Assembly: GCA_031289055.1 (NCBI GenBank)
Contig: JAITQE010000026.1
Span: 37,887-101,886, forward strand
Direction of reading: 5' to 3'
DNA from: Candidatus Endomicrobiellum porotermitis
Lineage (GTDB): Bacteria > Elusimicrobiota > Endomicrobiia > Endomicrobiales > Endomicrobiaceae
DNA: 64,000 bases
Of the stretch, positions 831-64,000 are shown piece after piece. The notes under the pieces are model-generated. The model was not told the origin of the DNA. It worked only from the letters and a program-made list of their open reading frames with translations, and searched no databases. A program made the translations under genes and the position numbers. Position 1 is the first letter of the stretch. Each line of letters starts with the position of its first letter.

Positions 831-1586
831 ATGTATAAAAACAGAAACAATAGAAAAGAATTATCGTTTGAAAATATTATATACGGACGCAATTCTGTTT
901 TAGAACTTCTTAAAGCAGGCAAACGCGCCGTAAACAAATTGATGGTTTCGCAGACTGCGAGAGGCTCGGCAATTTCAGAGATTATAAATCTTGCAAAGCA
1001 TAAGGGGATAGCTGTCCATTCTGTCCCGCCTGAGAAATTAGACAGGTTTTCGGAGCGGTCGCAAGGCGTTGCTGTAGAAGTTTCGCCAACAGAGTACGTA
1101 GAGCTTGAAGACTTAATAAAACAATCAAAACGGTCTCCGAAACCGTTGCTTGTAATATTAGACGGCATAGAAGATCCGCATAATTTAGGCGCAATAATAA
1201 GGAATTGCGTAGCTTTTGGAGCTGACGGCGCGATAATACCCAAGTGGAGAGCCGTCGGCGTAAATGAAACCGTTTCAAGAGCTTCTTCCGGAGCCGTAGA
1301 GCATATATCAATATCAAAAGTTGCAAACGTAAATCAGGCTATAGATTTATTAAAAGAAAATAACTTTTGGATAGCCGGCGCGGAAAACGGCGGACAAAGT
1401 TTGGAAGATGCGGATTTGCCTTTCCCTTTAGCCGTAATCATAGGAAGCGAAGGTTTTGGTCTCCATAATCTAACTAAAAAACATTGTGATTTTTTAATCT
1501 CAATTCCGCAAAAAACCGCCATATCTTCCCTCAACGCCTCGTGCGCCTCCGCCGTAATCCTATATGAGTTTTCCAAAAAGCGCTGA
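831..1586 (+). CDS. rlmB: 23S rRNA (guanosine-2'-O-)-methyltransferase, SpoU/TrmH family
   Basis: IIYGRNSVLELL, DGIEDPHNLGAIIRN, IIGSEGFGL, SLNASCASAVILYE motifs. Confidence 0.92.
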   Translation: MYKNRNNRKELSFENIIYGRNSVLELLKAGKRAVNKLMVSQTARGSAISEIINLAKHKGIAVHSVPPEKLDRFSERSQGVAVEVSPTEYVELEDLIKQSKRSPKPLLVILDGIEDPHNLGAIIRNCVAFGADGAIIPKWRAVGVNETVSRASSGAVEHISISKVANVNQAIDLLKENNFWIAGAENGGQSLEDADLPFPLAVIIGSEGFGLHNLTKKHCDFLISIPQKTAISSLNASCASAVILYEFSKKR

Positions 1587-2144
1587 TAGCAAGCGAATCC
1601 GCATGCCGTACAATACCGTTGCAAGGGTTAATACCCGAGTATATAGAAAAAGGTTCTCATTTTTATATCTAACCGATAAACTCAAGTATTAAAAATAATA
1701 TGTCTCAACAACTACTTCAAGCCCCTGTCAAAGTTGAATTCAACCGTCTTTCAATTTTTAACGAAGTTGTCCCGGAAGCTTTTCCATGTCCAAAAATTTT
1801 AAGCTCCATATCGGTTTTACTTGAATCGCTTTTATCTCTTGCAGGCGATAACAACTCAATTTTATCCGCGCAATCCATTATGCAAAATTGTTTTATTAAA
1901 TTTGACTTAGATGTCGGTATTTTATAAAATAGAACTTCGTAAATTTATTGTTGTATCGGCGTTTTTGTTTGCATTTATTGTTTGATTGTGAAAATTTTTT
2001 CCTTTTGATTTTTGCCCCAACCGAGCAAACGTAACGTTAAGATTAGGCGTGGAATATGTCATATAAGCGTCGCGTATAATTGTATAAATATCCGATTTAT
2101 CAGAGTGTGTTCTTAGTTGATTTTTAAGTTTTTGTTCTTGGTAA

Positions 2145-3191
2145 ATGGTAAAAATAGAGGAGCAGTGGGTGAACAAAATAGGCATAGTTTGTACAATGGG
2201 ACCAGCGATACGTTCCCTTGAAATTTTGAAGAGTTTAGCCGATAGCGGTATGGCTATAGTAAGGCTTAATTTTTCGCACGGAACTTTTGCGGAGCATGAA
2301 AAAGACATCGCTTTGGTAAGAACTTTAAACGAGCGGTATAAGAAAGATATAAAAATTCTCGCCGATTTGGAAGGACACAGAATAAGAGTTGGTAAAATTG
2401 AAGGCGGCAAGGTAGAATTAAAGAAAGGTCAACAGCTTATTCTTACTAATAAAGATATAGTAGGAAACAGTAAAGAAATTTCAATAGACTATCTAAATCC
2501 TCTTACGGACATTACAAAGGGTCTTACAATTTTTATAGACGATGGCAACCTTGCGTTAAAAGTTTTATCTTCAAAAGAAGACGAGGTTGTTACAGAAGTT
2601 CAGACGGACTATGTTTTAAAGACCCATAAAGGCGTAAATATTCCCGATGCAAAATTAAGATTTAAACCTTTAGAAGATAAAGACCGCGAAGGCTTGCTTT
2701 TTGCTTTGGGTCAAAACGTTGATTGCGTGGCGAATTCTTTTGTTAGAGATGCTGCCGATATGCAGCCTATAATAGACGTAGTAAAAGAGCAGAAAGCCAA
2801 ATGTGAACTTGTAGCTAAAATTGAAGATATGTCTGGAATCAATAATATTGACGAAATTCTTGATGTCGTTGAAGGAATAATGGTCGCCAGAGGCGACATG
2901 GGCGTATCTTTGCCTGTTTACTCAGTGCCCGTAATGCAAAAATACATAATAAAAAAATGCAAGGCGCGCGATAAGTTTGTAATCACGGCTACGCAAATGT
3001 TGGAAAGTATGATTAAAAATCCTGTTCCTACAAGAGCGGAGGTCAGCGATGTGGCTAATGCAGTTTTGGACGGAACCGACTATACAATGCTTTCAGCTGA
3101 AACGTCAGTAGGTCTTTATCCTGAGAAAGCTGTTGCTATGATGGGCAACGTTATAAAGTACACGTTGGAAAATAAATCAAAGATAGCCTAA
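2145..3191 (+). CDS. pyk: Pyruvate kinase, short form without the C-terminal domain
   Basis: VRLNFSHGTFAEHEK, MVARGDMGVSLP, ITATQMLESMI, PTRAEVSDVANAVLDGTDYTMLSAET; ends right after the barrel. Confidence 0.9.
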   Translation: MVKIEEQWVNKIGIVCTMGPAIRSLEILKSLADSGMAIVRLNFSHGTFAEHEKDIALVRTLNERYKKDIKILADLEGHRIRVGKIEGGKVELKKGQQLILTNKDIVGNSKEISIDYLNPLTDITKGLTIFIDDGNLALKVLSSKEDEVVTEVQTDYVLKTHKGVNIPDAKLRFKPLEDKDREGLLFALGQNVDCVANSFVRDAADMQPIIDVVKEQKAKCELVAKIEDMSGINNIDEILDVVEGIMVARGDMGVSLPVYSVPVMQKYIIKKCKARDKFVITATQMLESMIKNPVPTRAEVSDVANAVLDGTDYTMLSAETSVGLYPEKAVAMMGNVIKYTLENKSKIA

Positions 3192-3292
3192 ATTAATTTT
3201 TATTTTATAAAAGAGGACTGCTGTTGTATATTAATTTTTTTTGCTAATTTTTCGGCAGGCTGCTTTCTTTATAGTCGTAGTTAGGAGAAAAA

Positions 3293-4003
3293 GTGGAAAT
3301 TGTTTATTCGTTGATAGCCGCAAGCGCGGCGATGGTAGGAGCTTTAATAGTTATAACGTTTCATAAATGGTCTGAAAGAAATTCTTTTCTTATAATAAAT
3401 TTTGCGGCAGGCGTTATGCTTACGCTTGCTTTTGCTCATTTAATTCCTGAAGGCTTGGAGTTAAATTCCAATACGATGTTTTATGCTTTGATTGGTTTTT
3501 TGTTTATGTTTTTTTTGCAGTTTATTGTTCTATTCCACCCATGTCGCGATCACGAGTGCCGCACGCACACGCACGTAGCTTCTGTTGTAGGTTTATCTCT
3601 GCATTCAATTCTTGATGGACTTATGATAACTGTTGGTTTTGAGGCTAATGCAGAATTAGGAATTCTTACGACGTTTGCTATTTTGCTTCACAAGCTTCCT
3701 GACGGAATAACTATTTCGGGAGTTCTACTTCATAAAGGCGTTTCCAAAAAGAAAATTTTTCTTTTTTCTCTTCTTACCGCGTTATTTACGCCTCTTGGCG
3801 CAATAGTGGGGTTATGTTTGTTTAAAGGAATGTCTTTGCGTATGCTAGGGGCATTTTTAGGAGTAACGGCAGGCTCTTTTATTTTTCTTTCAGCTTCAGA
3901 TTTAATACCGGAAACCCATAAGTCAAAAGATAAAGTCACATCGCTTATGTTGTTTGCAGGGGTGTTTGTTGTCCTTGCTGCAGAACGTATAATAGGGCGT
4001 TGA
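3293..4003 (+). CDS. ZIP-family metal transporter
   Basis: Multi-TM; HLIPEG, HSILDG, LLHKLPDG motifs; His-rich loop; GTG start. Confidence 0.85.
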   Translation: MEIVYSLIAASAAMVGALIVITFHKWSERNSFLIINFAAGVMLTLAFAHLIPEGLELNSNTMFYALIGFLFMFFLQFIVLFHPCRDHECRTHTHVASVVGLSLHSILDGLMITVGFEANAELGILTTFAILLHKLPDGITISGVLLHKGVSKKKIFLFSLLTALFTPLGAIVGLCLFKGMSLRMLGAFLGVTAGSFIFLSASDLIPETHKSKDKVTSLMLFAGVFVVLAAERIIGR

Positions 4004-4043
4004 TTTATGATATTATTATGAATGATTTTGGAGATTTGCAACA

Positions 4044-4934
4044 ATGAATGAAATAAAGAAATTTCCATATACCTATATTTTGGGCTGGTCAGTGTCAAGG
4101 TACGATAGATTTTCAAGCTGCAAACGTCAATATTTCTACGATTATTATGCAAAATACGATAAAGAAAATCCTCTTGAAAAAATTGTATTTTTAAAAGGGT
4201 TAACTTCAAAAGCGCTGGAAACGGGAAATATTGTCCACGACGTTATAAGAGACACGCTTCAAAGATTCCAAAAGAGCTCAAAGCCAATAAACAAAGATAA
4301 ATTTTTCAAATATGCATTTAATACGACTGAGAAATATTGCGGCGCAAAAACTTTCTTTGAACATTATTATAATGGAGATTTAATTTCCGTTCAAGATATA
4401 TATTTAAAGGTGAAAAATATATTAGAAAAATTTTTGAATAGCCCACGCTTTTCTTGGATTGAAAAGAACGCTGTTCCGCAGAGCTCGGGGTGGGTTATAG
4501 AACCGCCGGGCTTTGGAGAAACAAGAATAAATAACTATAAAGCTTTTTGCAAAGTTGATTTTTTGTTTCCTGTCGGCGATAAAATATATATTATGGATTG
4601 GAAAACTGGGAAAGCCGATGATATTAAACACTCAAAACAATTGACCGGATACTCTCTTTGGGCAAACTATCATTTTGAAAAGAAAGCGTCCGACATTGTG
4701 CCTATGGTTGCGTATCTTTATCCCGAATACAAAGAGAGAAATATAAAGATCAATGATGCCTCCATATTTGAATTTGCAAATACTGTAGAATCGGAGACGA
4801 AAGATATGTATGAATATTTGATTGATATTGAGAAAAACATACCTAAAGACAAAAAAGAATTTCCTGTTGCCTGCAACGCGTTTTTTTGTAAATACTGCAA
4901 CTACAAAGAAATTTGCCGCGCAAGTAAATTTTAA
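4044..4934 (+). CDS. PD-(D/E)XK nuclease with putative Fe-S cysteines (RecB/Cas4/AddB-like), standalone
   Basis: WSVSRYDRFSSCKRQYFYDYY, IYIMDWKTGKADD nuclease core, C-terminal FCKYCNYKEIC (CxxCx5C). Confidence 0.8.
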   Translation: MNEIKKFPYTYILGWSVSRYDRFSSCKRQYFYDYYAKYDKENPLEKIVFLKGLTSKALETGNIVHDVIRDTLQRFQKSSKPINKDKFFKYAFNTTEKYCGAKTFFEHYYNGDLISVQDIYLKVKNILEKFLNSPRFSWIEKNAVPQSSGWVIEPPGFGETRINNYKAFCKVDFLFPVGDKIYIMDWKTGKADDIKHSKQLTGYSLWANYHFEKKASDIVPMVAYLYPEYKERNIKINDASIFEFANTVESETKDMYEYLIDIEKNIPKDKKEFPVACNAFFCKYCNYKEICRASKF

Positions 4935-5010
4935 TAAAATTGTCGCTTTAGCGAGCGTTAAATGGAATTGTTTGCCAATTCTTTGTCCAAAGCAGGTTTA
5001 GGTATTTAAT

Positions 5011-5176
5011 CCGAGATCCTTTCTAAAATCTTTGCTACAAAAGAAGCGGGGAAAGTCGCAGATCTTGGTTTATCAATGCGTTATGGCATAGTAAAGAGTT
5101 TGAGGGGGGGGTATCGGTTAAGAACGTTGTGGGAAAAGGTGCGACTTTCTATATAAATTTTCCGATATCAAAATAA
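5011..5176 (+). pseudogene. Relic of a sensor histidine kinase C-terminus
   Basis: Start-less frame ..KIFATKEAGKVADLGLSMRYGIVKSLRGGVSVKNVVGKGATFYINFPISK*, matching the G1/G2-box region (PFFTTKE.GKGTGLGLS..YGIVK..GG). Confidence 0.75.
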
Positions 5177-5178
5177 AT

Positions 5179-6339
5179 ATGAATACGATTTTGTATATTT
5201 TGATTGGATTTGTTGTTGGAGTTTCTTTTGTTTTGTTTAAATATATGGCAGCGGTAAAGGATAATGCCGCTAAAGAACAAAGGATAAAAGATTTAGAGGA
5301 AAATCTTAAAAACCAATCGGGTGTAAACGATTCTTTAAAAATAGAATTTGAAAATATTGCTTCAAAAGTTTTAGAAGAAAAAAACGCGAAAATTACGGAT
5401 TTGAATAAAGCTTCTTTGGAAAATGTAGTCGCGCCTTTTAAAGTAAAAATTGATGAGTTTAAAAACAAGGTTGAAAATCTTCAGATATATGAAGCGGAGA
5501 AAATGTCCGGACTACAGAAAGAATTGGAAAAATTAATTAGTCTTAATAAGCAAGTAAGCGAAGAAGCTAACAATCTTGCCGGAGCATTAAAAGGCGCGAA
5601 TAAATTACAAGGGATATGGGGCGAACTTACTTTGGAGAGAATTTTTGAATGCGCTGGCATGATAAAAGGCGTGCATTATAGTTCTCAGGAACAGTTTAAA
5701 GAGGAAAGCGGAAGAAAGATTCCAGATTATATAGTTAACTTGCCTGAAGGAAAGAGCATAGTTGTTGACGCAAAAACATCGCTAGGAGCTTATGAAAAAT
5801 ATTATAGTTCTCAAAATGAAACGGATAAAAAGATTTATTTAAAAGAACACTCTGTAAGCGTAAAAAAACACATTGATGAGCTTGCAGAAAAAGGCTATGC
5901 CGATTTACAGAGACTTAACCAACCCGAATATGTTTTAATGTTTGTGCCTGTAGAGGGAGCTGTTTCGCTGGCCGTTGCAGATAAACCGGATTTAGTAGGC
6001 TATGCGTTTAAGAAAAATATTATAATAGTTACGCCGTCAACGCTTTTAGCCACCTTAAAAACCGTTGAGTATATTTGGCGTCAAGAAAGCCAAAAAAAAA
6101 ATGTTCTTGAAATAGCTAAAGTAGGCGGGAATCTTTACGATAAATTTGTAACTTTTGCCGAGACTTTGCTTGATGTCAACAGGAAGATGACGGAAGCAAA
6201 AGATAAAACCGAAGAAGCCTTAAAGAGGCTTTCTTCTCCTGACAAGAAAGGCGATAGTTTGGTTGCAAGAGCTCAAAAGTTAAAAGAACTCGGATCTCCG
6301 ACAAGAAAAGAAATGCCTAGAGAGTTGTTAACCGACTAA
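5179..6339 (+). CDS. rmuC: DNA recombination protein RmuC
   Basis: N-terminal TM + coiled coil, KLQGIWGELTLERIFECAGM, VVDAKTSLGAYEKY, LLATLKTVEYIWRQE. Confidence 0.93.
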   Translation: MNTILYILIGFVVGVSFVLFKYMAAVKDNAAKEQRIKDLEENLKNQSGVNDSLKIEFENIASKVLEEKNAKITDLNKASLENVVAPFKVKIDEFKNKVENLQIYEAEKMSGLQKELEKLISLNKQVSEEANNLAGALKGANKLQGIWGELTLERIFECAGMIKGVHYSSQEQFKEESGRKIPDYIVNLPEGKSIVVDAKTSLGAYEKYYSSQNETDKKIYLKEHSVSVKKHIDELAEKGYADLQRLNQPEYVLMFVPVEGAVSLAVADKPDLVGYAFKKNIIIVTPSTLLATLKTVEYIWRQESQKKNVLEIAKVGGNLYDKFVTFAETLLDVNRKMTEAKDKTEEALKRLSSPDKKGDSLVARAQKLKELGSPTRKEMPRELLTD

Positions 6340-62586: not shown

Positions 62587-63216
62587 ATGATAAAACTGAT
62601 TAAAGTAAAAAAGATAAGAACGGGAATTATTGGCGAAAATTGTTATTTGGTTTACGATGCGGACGCCAAACGCGCGGCTGTCATAGATCCCGGCGAAGAC
62701 GCCGACCGGATTATTAATGCCATAGAGACGGAAAATTTGAAACCCGAGATTCTTATCAACACGCATGGACATTACGATCATGTTATAGGCGACGATAAAA
62801 TTCGTTTAAGATATAAAATTCCGCTAGCAGTTCACAAAGATGAGTCTGAGATGCTTGCGGATCCTGAGAAAAACGGTTCCTTGCTTTGGGGACTGCCAGC
62901 AACTATTAAAGATCCTGAAATTTTACTTGAAGACAATCAAGAGGTAAAATTATCTTTTATTACTTTTAAAGTTTTAAGCACTCCCGGTCATTCAAAAGGC
63001 AGCGTATGCTTGTTATTTGGGTCATATTTATTTACAGGCGACACTCTTTTTGCAGGCGCCATAGGAAGAACTGATTTGTGGGGCGGAAATACTGGAGAGA
63101 TTTTGAAATCGCTTGAAAAACTAAAAAAACTGGATCCTTCTATTACAGTTTATCCTGGACACGGAAGCGTGACTACGATTGCTAATGAGCTTAGACGCAA
63201 TCCATTGATAGGCTAG
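62587..63216 (+). CDS. MBL-fold metallo-hydrolase (glyoxalase II-like)
   Basis: NTHGHYDHVIGD; LSTPGHSKGSVCLL; TGDTLFAGAIGRTDLWGGN; YPGHGSVTTI. Confidence 0.93.
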   Translation: MIKLIKVKKIRTGIIGENCYLVYDADAKRAAVIDPGEDADRIINAIETENLKPEILINTHGHYDHVIGDDKIRLRYKIPLAVHKDESEMLADPEKNGSLLWGLPATIKDPEILLEDNQEVKLSFITFKVLSTPGHSKGSVCLLFGSYLFTGDTLFAGAIGRTDLWGGNTGEILKSLEKLKKLDPSITVYPGHGSVTTIANELRRNPLIG

Positions 63217-63767
63217 TAAAGTGGAGCAAAGAGTCTAAAGAATTTTTTGAAAAATCAGAAGATAAGAGCGTAGTTTTAGATTTGGTTATATCTTACGGCT
63301 GCGCAAGCCAAACGGGAGAAGGGTTTGAAGAGCTTATCAATACAATTAATAGCGAAAGTATCAAAAGAAAAGTAAAAAAGGTCAATATAACGGACACGTC
63401 TTATCTTTATAGACATATCATTTCGCAATTTTCAGGATTTTGCGATCCAAATATTCCTACAGAATGGTACTTAAAAAACAAAGATGCAATTGGAAAATTG
63501 ACTATTCCGCCACAATTAAAATCATGGGCTACGGGTTTGGATAAAGATGGTTTTCAAAATTGGTATAGGCAGATAAAGAAAGATTTCTTTACTGACTCCA
63601 AATTTAAAAATGCAGTTATAGAATTAGCAATGGAGTTTACTACTAAAAGTTTTTATGACGTTGAGATTGGTAGAAATATAGATTTTATACTTGAGGAAAC
63701 AGCATATACTGCTTTTAATCTCAAAGCGGCGAATATTGTTTATCCTACAGGAATTTCAAATTATTAA
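63195..63767 (+). CDS. Probable tRNA-dependent cyclodipeptide synthase (XYP-like); 5' end possibly eroded
   Basis: VVLDLVISYGCASQ (SxGx at the catalytic-Ser position), VNITDTSYLYRH, TEWYLKNK, IDFILEETAY, final VYP. Frame is open from 63195 but the first accepted start is TTG at 63282, inside the conserved region. Confidence 0.6.
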   Translation, partial: TQSIDRLVKWSKESKEFFEKSEDKSVVLDLVISYGCASQTGEGFEELINTINSESIKRKVKKVNITDTSYLYRHIISQFSGFCDPNIPTEWYLKNKDAIGKLTIPPQLKSWATGLDKDGFQNWYRQIKKDFFTDSKFKNAVIELAMEFTTKSFYDVEIGRNIDFILEETAYTAFNLKAANIVYPTGISNY

Positions 63768-64000
63768 TCAAAGCCGTGAGCAATATAAGGTAAGAGATAT
63801 AGAATTTAAAAGTTCGTTCAATAGCGCGAATAAGTTTGTATTTATAAGAGGGAATTTTGTTGATTTTAGCAGAATGATATCTAATTTACTAAATAACGCA
63901 GTAGAAGCAATAGAAATGAAAAAAGGGATAATAGATGTTTCTTATGCGGTGAAAGGAGATAAAGTAGAAATAAAGATAAAAGATAATGGAAAAGGAATGC
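63745..64000 (+). pseudogene. Histidine-kinase-type ATPase fragment (5'-truncated, runs off right edge)
   Basis: FSRMISNLLNNAVEAIEMKKGIIDVSYAVKGDKVEIKIKDNGKGM (N box and DxGxG start); no start codon in frame; overlaps the 3' end of the preceding ORF. Confidence 0.65.

Follow-up and report, generated by a model that had tools for sequence, protein, structure and literature searches.

A cyclodipeptide synthase-like domain at the N terminus of hybrid histidine kinases in gut-protist symbionts, and its decayed remnant in Candidatus Endomicrobiellum

Cyclodipeptide synthases (CDPSs) are familiar as enzymes of biosynthesis, and those of the XYP type bind the acceptor arm of aminoacyl-tRNA (PMC7566563); here, the CDPS fold is found tied to histidine kinases, in both subfamilies and in different phyla living with gut protists. 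CDPSs located at the N terminus of a bigger polypeptide have been described, among the few known CDPS fusions (PMC5816076) and among cAA enzymes of Legionellaceae that carry an additional domain at the C terminus, but the described partners are tailoring, transport or unknown domains, whereas the partner in the family reported here is a PAS-histidine kinase-receiver module. Among the domains without a biosynthetic function in the vicinity of CDPS genes, PAS is one of the most frequent, and a role in quorum sensing was suggested (Skinnider et al., PMC5767969). The family shares this CDPS-PAS association; however, in the published cases the domains lie in neighbouring ORFs, whereas in Endomicrobiellum and Alphaproteobacteria they are joined in a single polypeptide, both CDPS subfamilies are involved and paralogues have multiplied in protist symbionts. 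Hybrid kinases of Legionella plasmids (e.g. WP_252582798) share ~32% identity with a full-length fusion over HisKA-HATPase-receiver, but only the kinase half matches; a HAMP domain is annotated in them and the CDPS domain is unmatched. Both halves of the fusion are of known kinds. No report of the fusion was found in a limited literature search on CDPSs with histidine kinases, PAS domains, Endomicrobium or sensors and symbionts, which covered few subscription papers, and histidine kinases, two-component systems and dipeptides are absent from the main text of the genome paper on Endomicrobia.

The window analysed here is a 64,000-nucleotide stretch at the right end of a contig (C26) of Candidatus Endomicrobiellum, a genus whose members, like Endomicrobium, are endosymbionts of termite gut flagellates (PMC11257099). 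At ~1.04 Mb, the genome is indeed the reduced symbiont genome that the first-pass annotation had supposed. The open frame at 63195-63767 (+), annotated there as a probable XYP-type CDPS, is present and reads TQSIDRLVKWSKESKEFFEKSEDKSVVLDLVISYGCASQTGEGFEEL...DFILEETAYTAFNLKAANIVYPTGISNY*, with all of the named motifs in place: S-Y-G-C (S32, nt 63291-63293), DTSYLYRH, TEWYLKNK, FILEE (F163 and E167) and Y-P (Y182-P183). These residues are equivalent in AlbC to S37 (S32), Y178 (F163), E182 (E167) and Y202-P203 (Y182-P183). Since two stop-free frames of 190 codons arose in 20 simulations of a 64-kb window with the same dinucleotide make-up, that is, in about one window in ten, the length of the frame alone is weak evidence, and it is homology, not length, that is decisive for the predicted CDPS assignment.

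The single window sequence matched a solved CDPS in the PDB (5ocd, E=0.0047). No match above the gathering cut-off of Pfam PF16715 was obtained with the window sequence or with the other 19 family members, but a profile built from the 20 members matched Rgry-CDPS (5mlp, 3.9e-8), Fdum-CDPS (5ocd, 9.2e-7) and Nbra-CDPS (5mlq, 5.4e-6), all three of which are XYP enzymes. The structure that AlphaFold predicts for the window domain (pLDDT 85.6, pTM 0.79) showed the Rossmann-like CDPS fold in Foldseek searches, in which the best 48 PDB matches were all CDPSs with XYP members leading, and the 27 PDB chains at E<=0.001 were likewise all CDPSs, with 5ocd at the top (E=2e-8). Judged from family profile and predicted structure, positions 63198-63764 (+), a domain of 189 codons without the last ~35 residues, are a CDPS by descent and fold, of the XYP type. 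Compared with the XYP CDPSs of known structure (Fdum-CDPS 5ocd, Nbra-CDPS 5mlq/9iam and Rgry-CDPS 5mlp), the family has in common the fold, the catalytic Ser, Glu182, the Tyr-Pro pair, the EW..N helix and the YL.RH motif, but shares ~20% identity, has Phe for Tyr178 in 51 of 52 domains, forms the N-terminal part of a histidine kinase and, as single sequences, gives no Pfam CDPS match.

The window feature is the decayed N-terminal remnant of a CDPS-hybrid histidine kinase gene, and not the standalone copy for which it had been taken. Upstream, it adjoins the 3' end of an MBL-fold (GloB-like) hydrolase gene (62587-63216, +), which shares 88% DNA identity with L033:1-435 of another genome (G008) up to 63206. 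DNA matches to L033 and to a second relative, L032, place a deletion junction at 63204-63216 (+), where the hydrolase 3' end runs into the 5' end of the CDPS domain and the homologous ATG is gone. Matches to the G008 hydrolase gene reach 63206, those to the CDPS-kinase gene begin at 63206-63216, and the match to L032 begins at L032:1488, the gene start there being 1480. In L033 these genes still stand ~790 bp apart, so that in the window a deletion has joined hydrolase and CDPS gene, with loss of the ATG. Before 63282 the window frame contains no ATG, GTG or TTG, and the start position of the relatives holds no start codon.

A second deletion scar was mapped by DNA matches to 63759-63828 (+), where the C-terminal end of the CDPS domain, the linker, PAS and HisKA are lost and the frame then changes. 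Matches to L031 stop at 63758 and those to the kinase parts of L034, L003 and L060 restart at 63829-63839, indicating that ~690 bp (CDPS end, PAS and HisKA; size from L034) are gone. The stop of the window frame at 63765-63767 is therefore a consequence of the deletion. What remains of the gene extends in a shifted frame as far as the end of the contig as a HATPase remnant (63829-64000, +; N-box NLLNNAVEA, G1 DNGKGM), which shares 75% amino acid identity over 57 residues with the kinase of an intact 779-aa gene in the same genome. The input domain of the window copy is thus not followed by a kinase in its own frame, PAS and HisKA being deleted and the HATPase out of frame. Initiation at a rare codon (TTG 63282 or ATT 63204) might conceivably still yield a shortened product. 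The G008 copy at the same site (L033) also has stop codons, six related genomes showed no such gene in the flank examined at this site (L124-L129), and further fragments of the family lie on contigs C20 and C21 of the window's genome. The CDPS part still has a dN/dS of 0.18 against L031, suggesting that the decay of this copy may be recent.

Since the window copy is itself a remnant, the interest rests in the family. When the window protein was used as a query against the genus, 17 of 42 genomes had matches, with as many as eight in a single genome; the matches frequently fall in much longer frames and frequently lie at the end of a contig. The common architecture, in one polypeptide, is a CDPS-like domain (~225 aa) followed by a PAS-like domain ending in ..GVIGLAVDITDRKK, a HisKA (HDI.SP), a HATPase (N and G boxes) and a receiver, so that in the relatives from Candidatus Endomicrobiellum and Alphaproteobacteria the CDPS is the N-terminal domain of hybrid histidine kinases of 690-860 aa. 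In the order around one alphaproteobacterial genome (G081), 25 of 50 genomes carry the fusion family, mostly as intact frames. Single-frame fusions include L060 (835 aa), L067 (707 aa), L100 (705 aa), L092 (706 aa), L097 (722 aa), L098 (705 aa), L106 (701 aa) and L114 (689 aa). A contig scan also found the family in Holosporaceae, other termite-gut Alphaproteobacteria and a goat-cecum alphaproteobacterium, as well as one termite-gut Prevotellaceae MAG whose CDPS-like domain has no kinase in frame with it. In Pfam searches of full-length members, HATPase_c was above the cut-off (up to 6e-19), PAS_4 and HisKA were weak but in place, and Response_reg was above the cut-off in L060 and below it in L100. 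Most full-length relatives have the H-box HDI.SP with its His, the N and G boxes and the receiver Asp. The model of a full-length fusion reached a pTM of 0.38, at which the contacts between domains are not readable. That the fusions stem from chimeric assembly is ruled out by intact examples in many genomes of differing origin.

CDPSs of the NYH type are linked to kinases as well. The genus has canonical NYH-type CDPS genes (PF16715, E to 1e-50), and in all seven Endomicrobiellum loci with a readable flank (L007-L012 and L014) the next gene downstream is a PAS-kinase, usually after a gap of a few bases. Among Alphaproteobacteria, the NYH CDPS adjoins a kinase in L187 and L188, and L186:1435-3633 (747 aa) and L189:1438-3591 (718 aa) encode it together with a PAS_4-histidine kinase as one continuous frame; for these two, Pfam reported PF16715 (E 9e-58 and 2e-44, respectively) plus PAS_4 and HATPase_c. 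These kinase-linked CDPSs retain GISPFN (S and N40), Y178, E182 and mostly Y202, with Lys replacing His at 203. On a plasmid of Legionella lytica (L213:3980-6734; NZ_CP071528.1 45226-47980), an NYH CDPS gene overlaps a PAS_4-HisKA-HATPase-REC-Hpt gene; this operon sits in a cultured organism, and the overlapping pair makes the idea of cyclodipeptides as signals accessible in culture. That CDPS and kinase are joined in both subfamilies argues for a functional bond between them.

The active site was surveyed in 52 distinct domains, with S37, Y202 and P203 scored in 51. Columns were equated through the profile alignment to 5mlp, in which the query F aligns with the Y, and the second E with the second E, of NYFLEES; in Rgry-CDPS, Y181 and E185 are the positions matching the Y178 and E182 columns (PMC7566563). 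The catalytic Ser was found in 49 of 51 domains, with Cys in the other two, and Glu at 182 in 47 of 52, with Lys in five, while the Tyr202-Pro203 signature was nearly invariant (Y 50/51, P 51/51). The Y178 column, however, held Phe in 51 of 52 domains, including that of the window. All through the family, therefore, the pocket is kept but one of its catalytic positions is changed. In AlbC, the Y178F substitution substantially impaired activity and aminoacyl-enzyme formation (PMC5935735), although AlbC is an NYH and not an XYP enzyme, which cautions against reading the Phe as lost turnover. As for the first-pass annotation of a cyclodipeptide synthase of the XYP type, homology, fold and the Tyr-Pro pair uphold the assignment to the fold and type, but diketopiperazine synthesis is not to be assumed for a family without the catalytic Tyr178. 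The CDPS domain is under purifying selection: dN/dS between the closest pairs was 0.05-0.37, which argues against drift.

Lateral acquisition, also suggested by that annotation, is borne out by the domain tree (52 rows, IQ-TREE), in which Endomicrobiellum and alphaproteobacterial rows are intermixed with 10 label changes, at least seven Elusimicrobiota/Alphaproteobacteria changes being forced by well-supported branches. Such mixing agrees with the exchange already reported between Endomicrobiellum and alphaproteobacterial symbionts of flagellates (PMC11257099). In a plasmid collection, the XYP-like domain found no relatives and the full protein matched with its kinase half only. IMG/VR viral contigs contained no relative and so give no sign of phage carriage.

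Based on these data, we favour, at roughly even chances, the view that the CDPS domain was recruited as a kinase input with a binding or sensing role, probably for aminoacyl-tRNA or cyclodipeptide. The domain would retain the pocket for the tRNA acceptor and aminoacyl group together with the nucleophilic Ser, Tyr178 being lost. We propose that a pocket of this kind might bind aminoacyl-tRNA or hold a slowly turned-over aminoacyl or dipeptidyl adduct or a cyclodipeptide, so that the ligand would be the aminoacyl-tRNA, the enzyme-bound adduct or the cyclodipeptide, with Phe178 slowing or abolishing turnover. Occupancy of the pocket would then set kinase activity through PAS/HisKA, phosphate would pass to the receiver, and the output may report the supply of amino acids or charged tRNA within the protist host cell. 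A more specific proposal, for now doubtful, is a histidine kinase class that senses aminoacyl-tRNA charging directly, in which the recruited CDPS binds or is acylated without turnover and which spread and diversified by gene exchange among gut-protist symbionts. If the domain senses aminoacyl-tRNA, it would add a new type to the nutrient sensors of bacteria.

Retention of Ser, Glu and Tyr202 is also compatible with a live enzyme. The fused CDPS could be an active synthase whose cyclodipeptide is a signal sensed by the PAS-kinase part of its own polypeptide or of a sibling, which would make the fusion an autoinducer synthase and receptor in one; besides the conserved Ser, Glu182 and Tyr202-Pro203, the NYH CDPSs with S, N40, Y178, E182 and mostly Y202 beside or fused to PAS_4 kinases, and the PAS domains common near CDPS genes with their suggested quorum-sensing role (PMC5767969), speak for it. 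Set against the Phe at 178 in all domains but one, the Lys at E182 in five and the Cys at S37 in two, this reading is possible but on the whole unlikely; if the domain does make a cyclodipeptide, a fused signal synthase-receptor would result. Those same substitutions, Y178F with the occasional S37C and E182K, would suit a catalytically dead module that serves dimerisation or as a scaffold without a ligand. This is improbable, since a scaffold has no need of the pocket residues and Ser, Glu and Tyr-Pro are otherwise kept in >90% of members at low dN/dS. As for a standalone XYP CDPS of a small secondary metabolite pathway, the open frame that looks isolated and bears every CDPS motif and the one domain-only copy in G115 (L171:512-1189) would agree with it, but the relatives are kinase fusions, the start and 3' part of the window copy are lost with a kinase remnant ~60 bp downstream of its frame, and the neighbours are rimO, pgsA, pgpA and the hydrolase. 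There is no sign of a secondary metabolite cluster, and this reading is very improbable.

The intact 779-aa PAS-hybrid histidine kinase of the window's genome (G000:C22:67691-70027, -; L003:7692-10028) has as its N-terminal domain (~250 aa) a different family, A4, which is multi-copy and occurs in 16 of 42 genomes of the genus. Its motifs YLVEENAWIL and IYVIHVG resemble the CDPS Y178xxxE182 and Y202 elements; as a candidate further CDPS, A4 gave no match in a PDB profile search and a 43% probability over 59 columns when aligned by hhalign to A3. Directly downstream of the 779-aa kinase gene lies a decayed NYH-type CDPS fragment with three stops (G000:C22:67352-67597, -; L001). In G115, the domain-only CDPS-like copy (226 aa; L171:512-1189, -) is divergent from a full-length CDPS-kinase gene (1477-3636, +), and one alphaproteobacterium has a tandem pair of full CDPS-kinase genes (L094:1061-3538 and 3970-5724). 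In G017, four copies at contig ends (L059, L063, L064 and L078) have differing CDPS domains and an identical kinase end (..VERMLVDDICSPGLSL..), which suggests paralogues with homogenised kinase halves and variable input domains.
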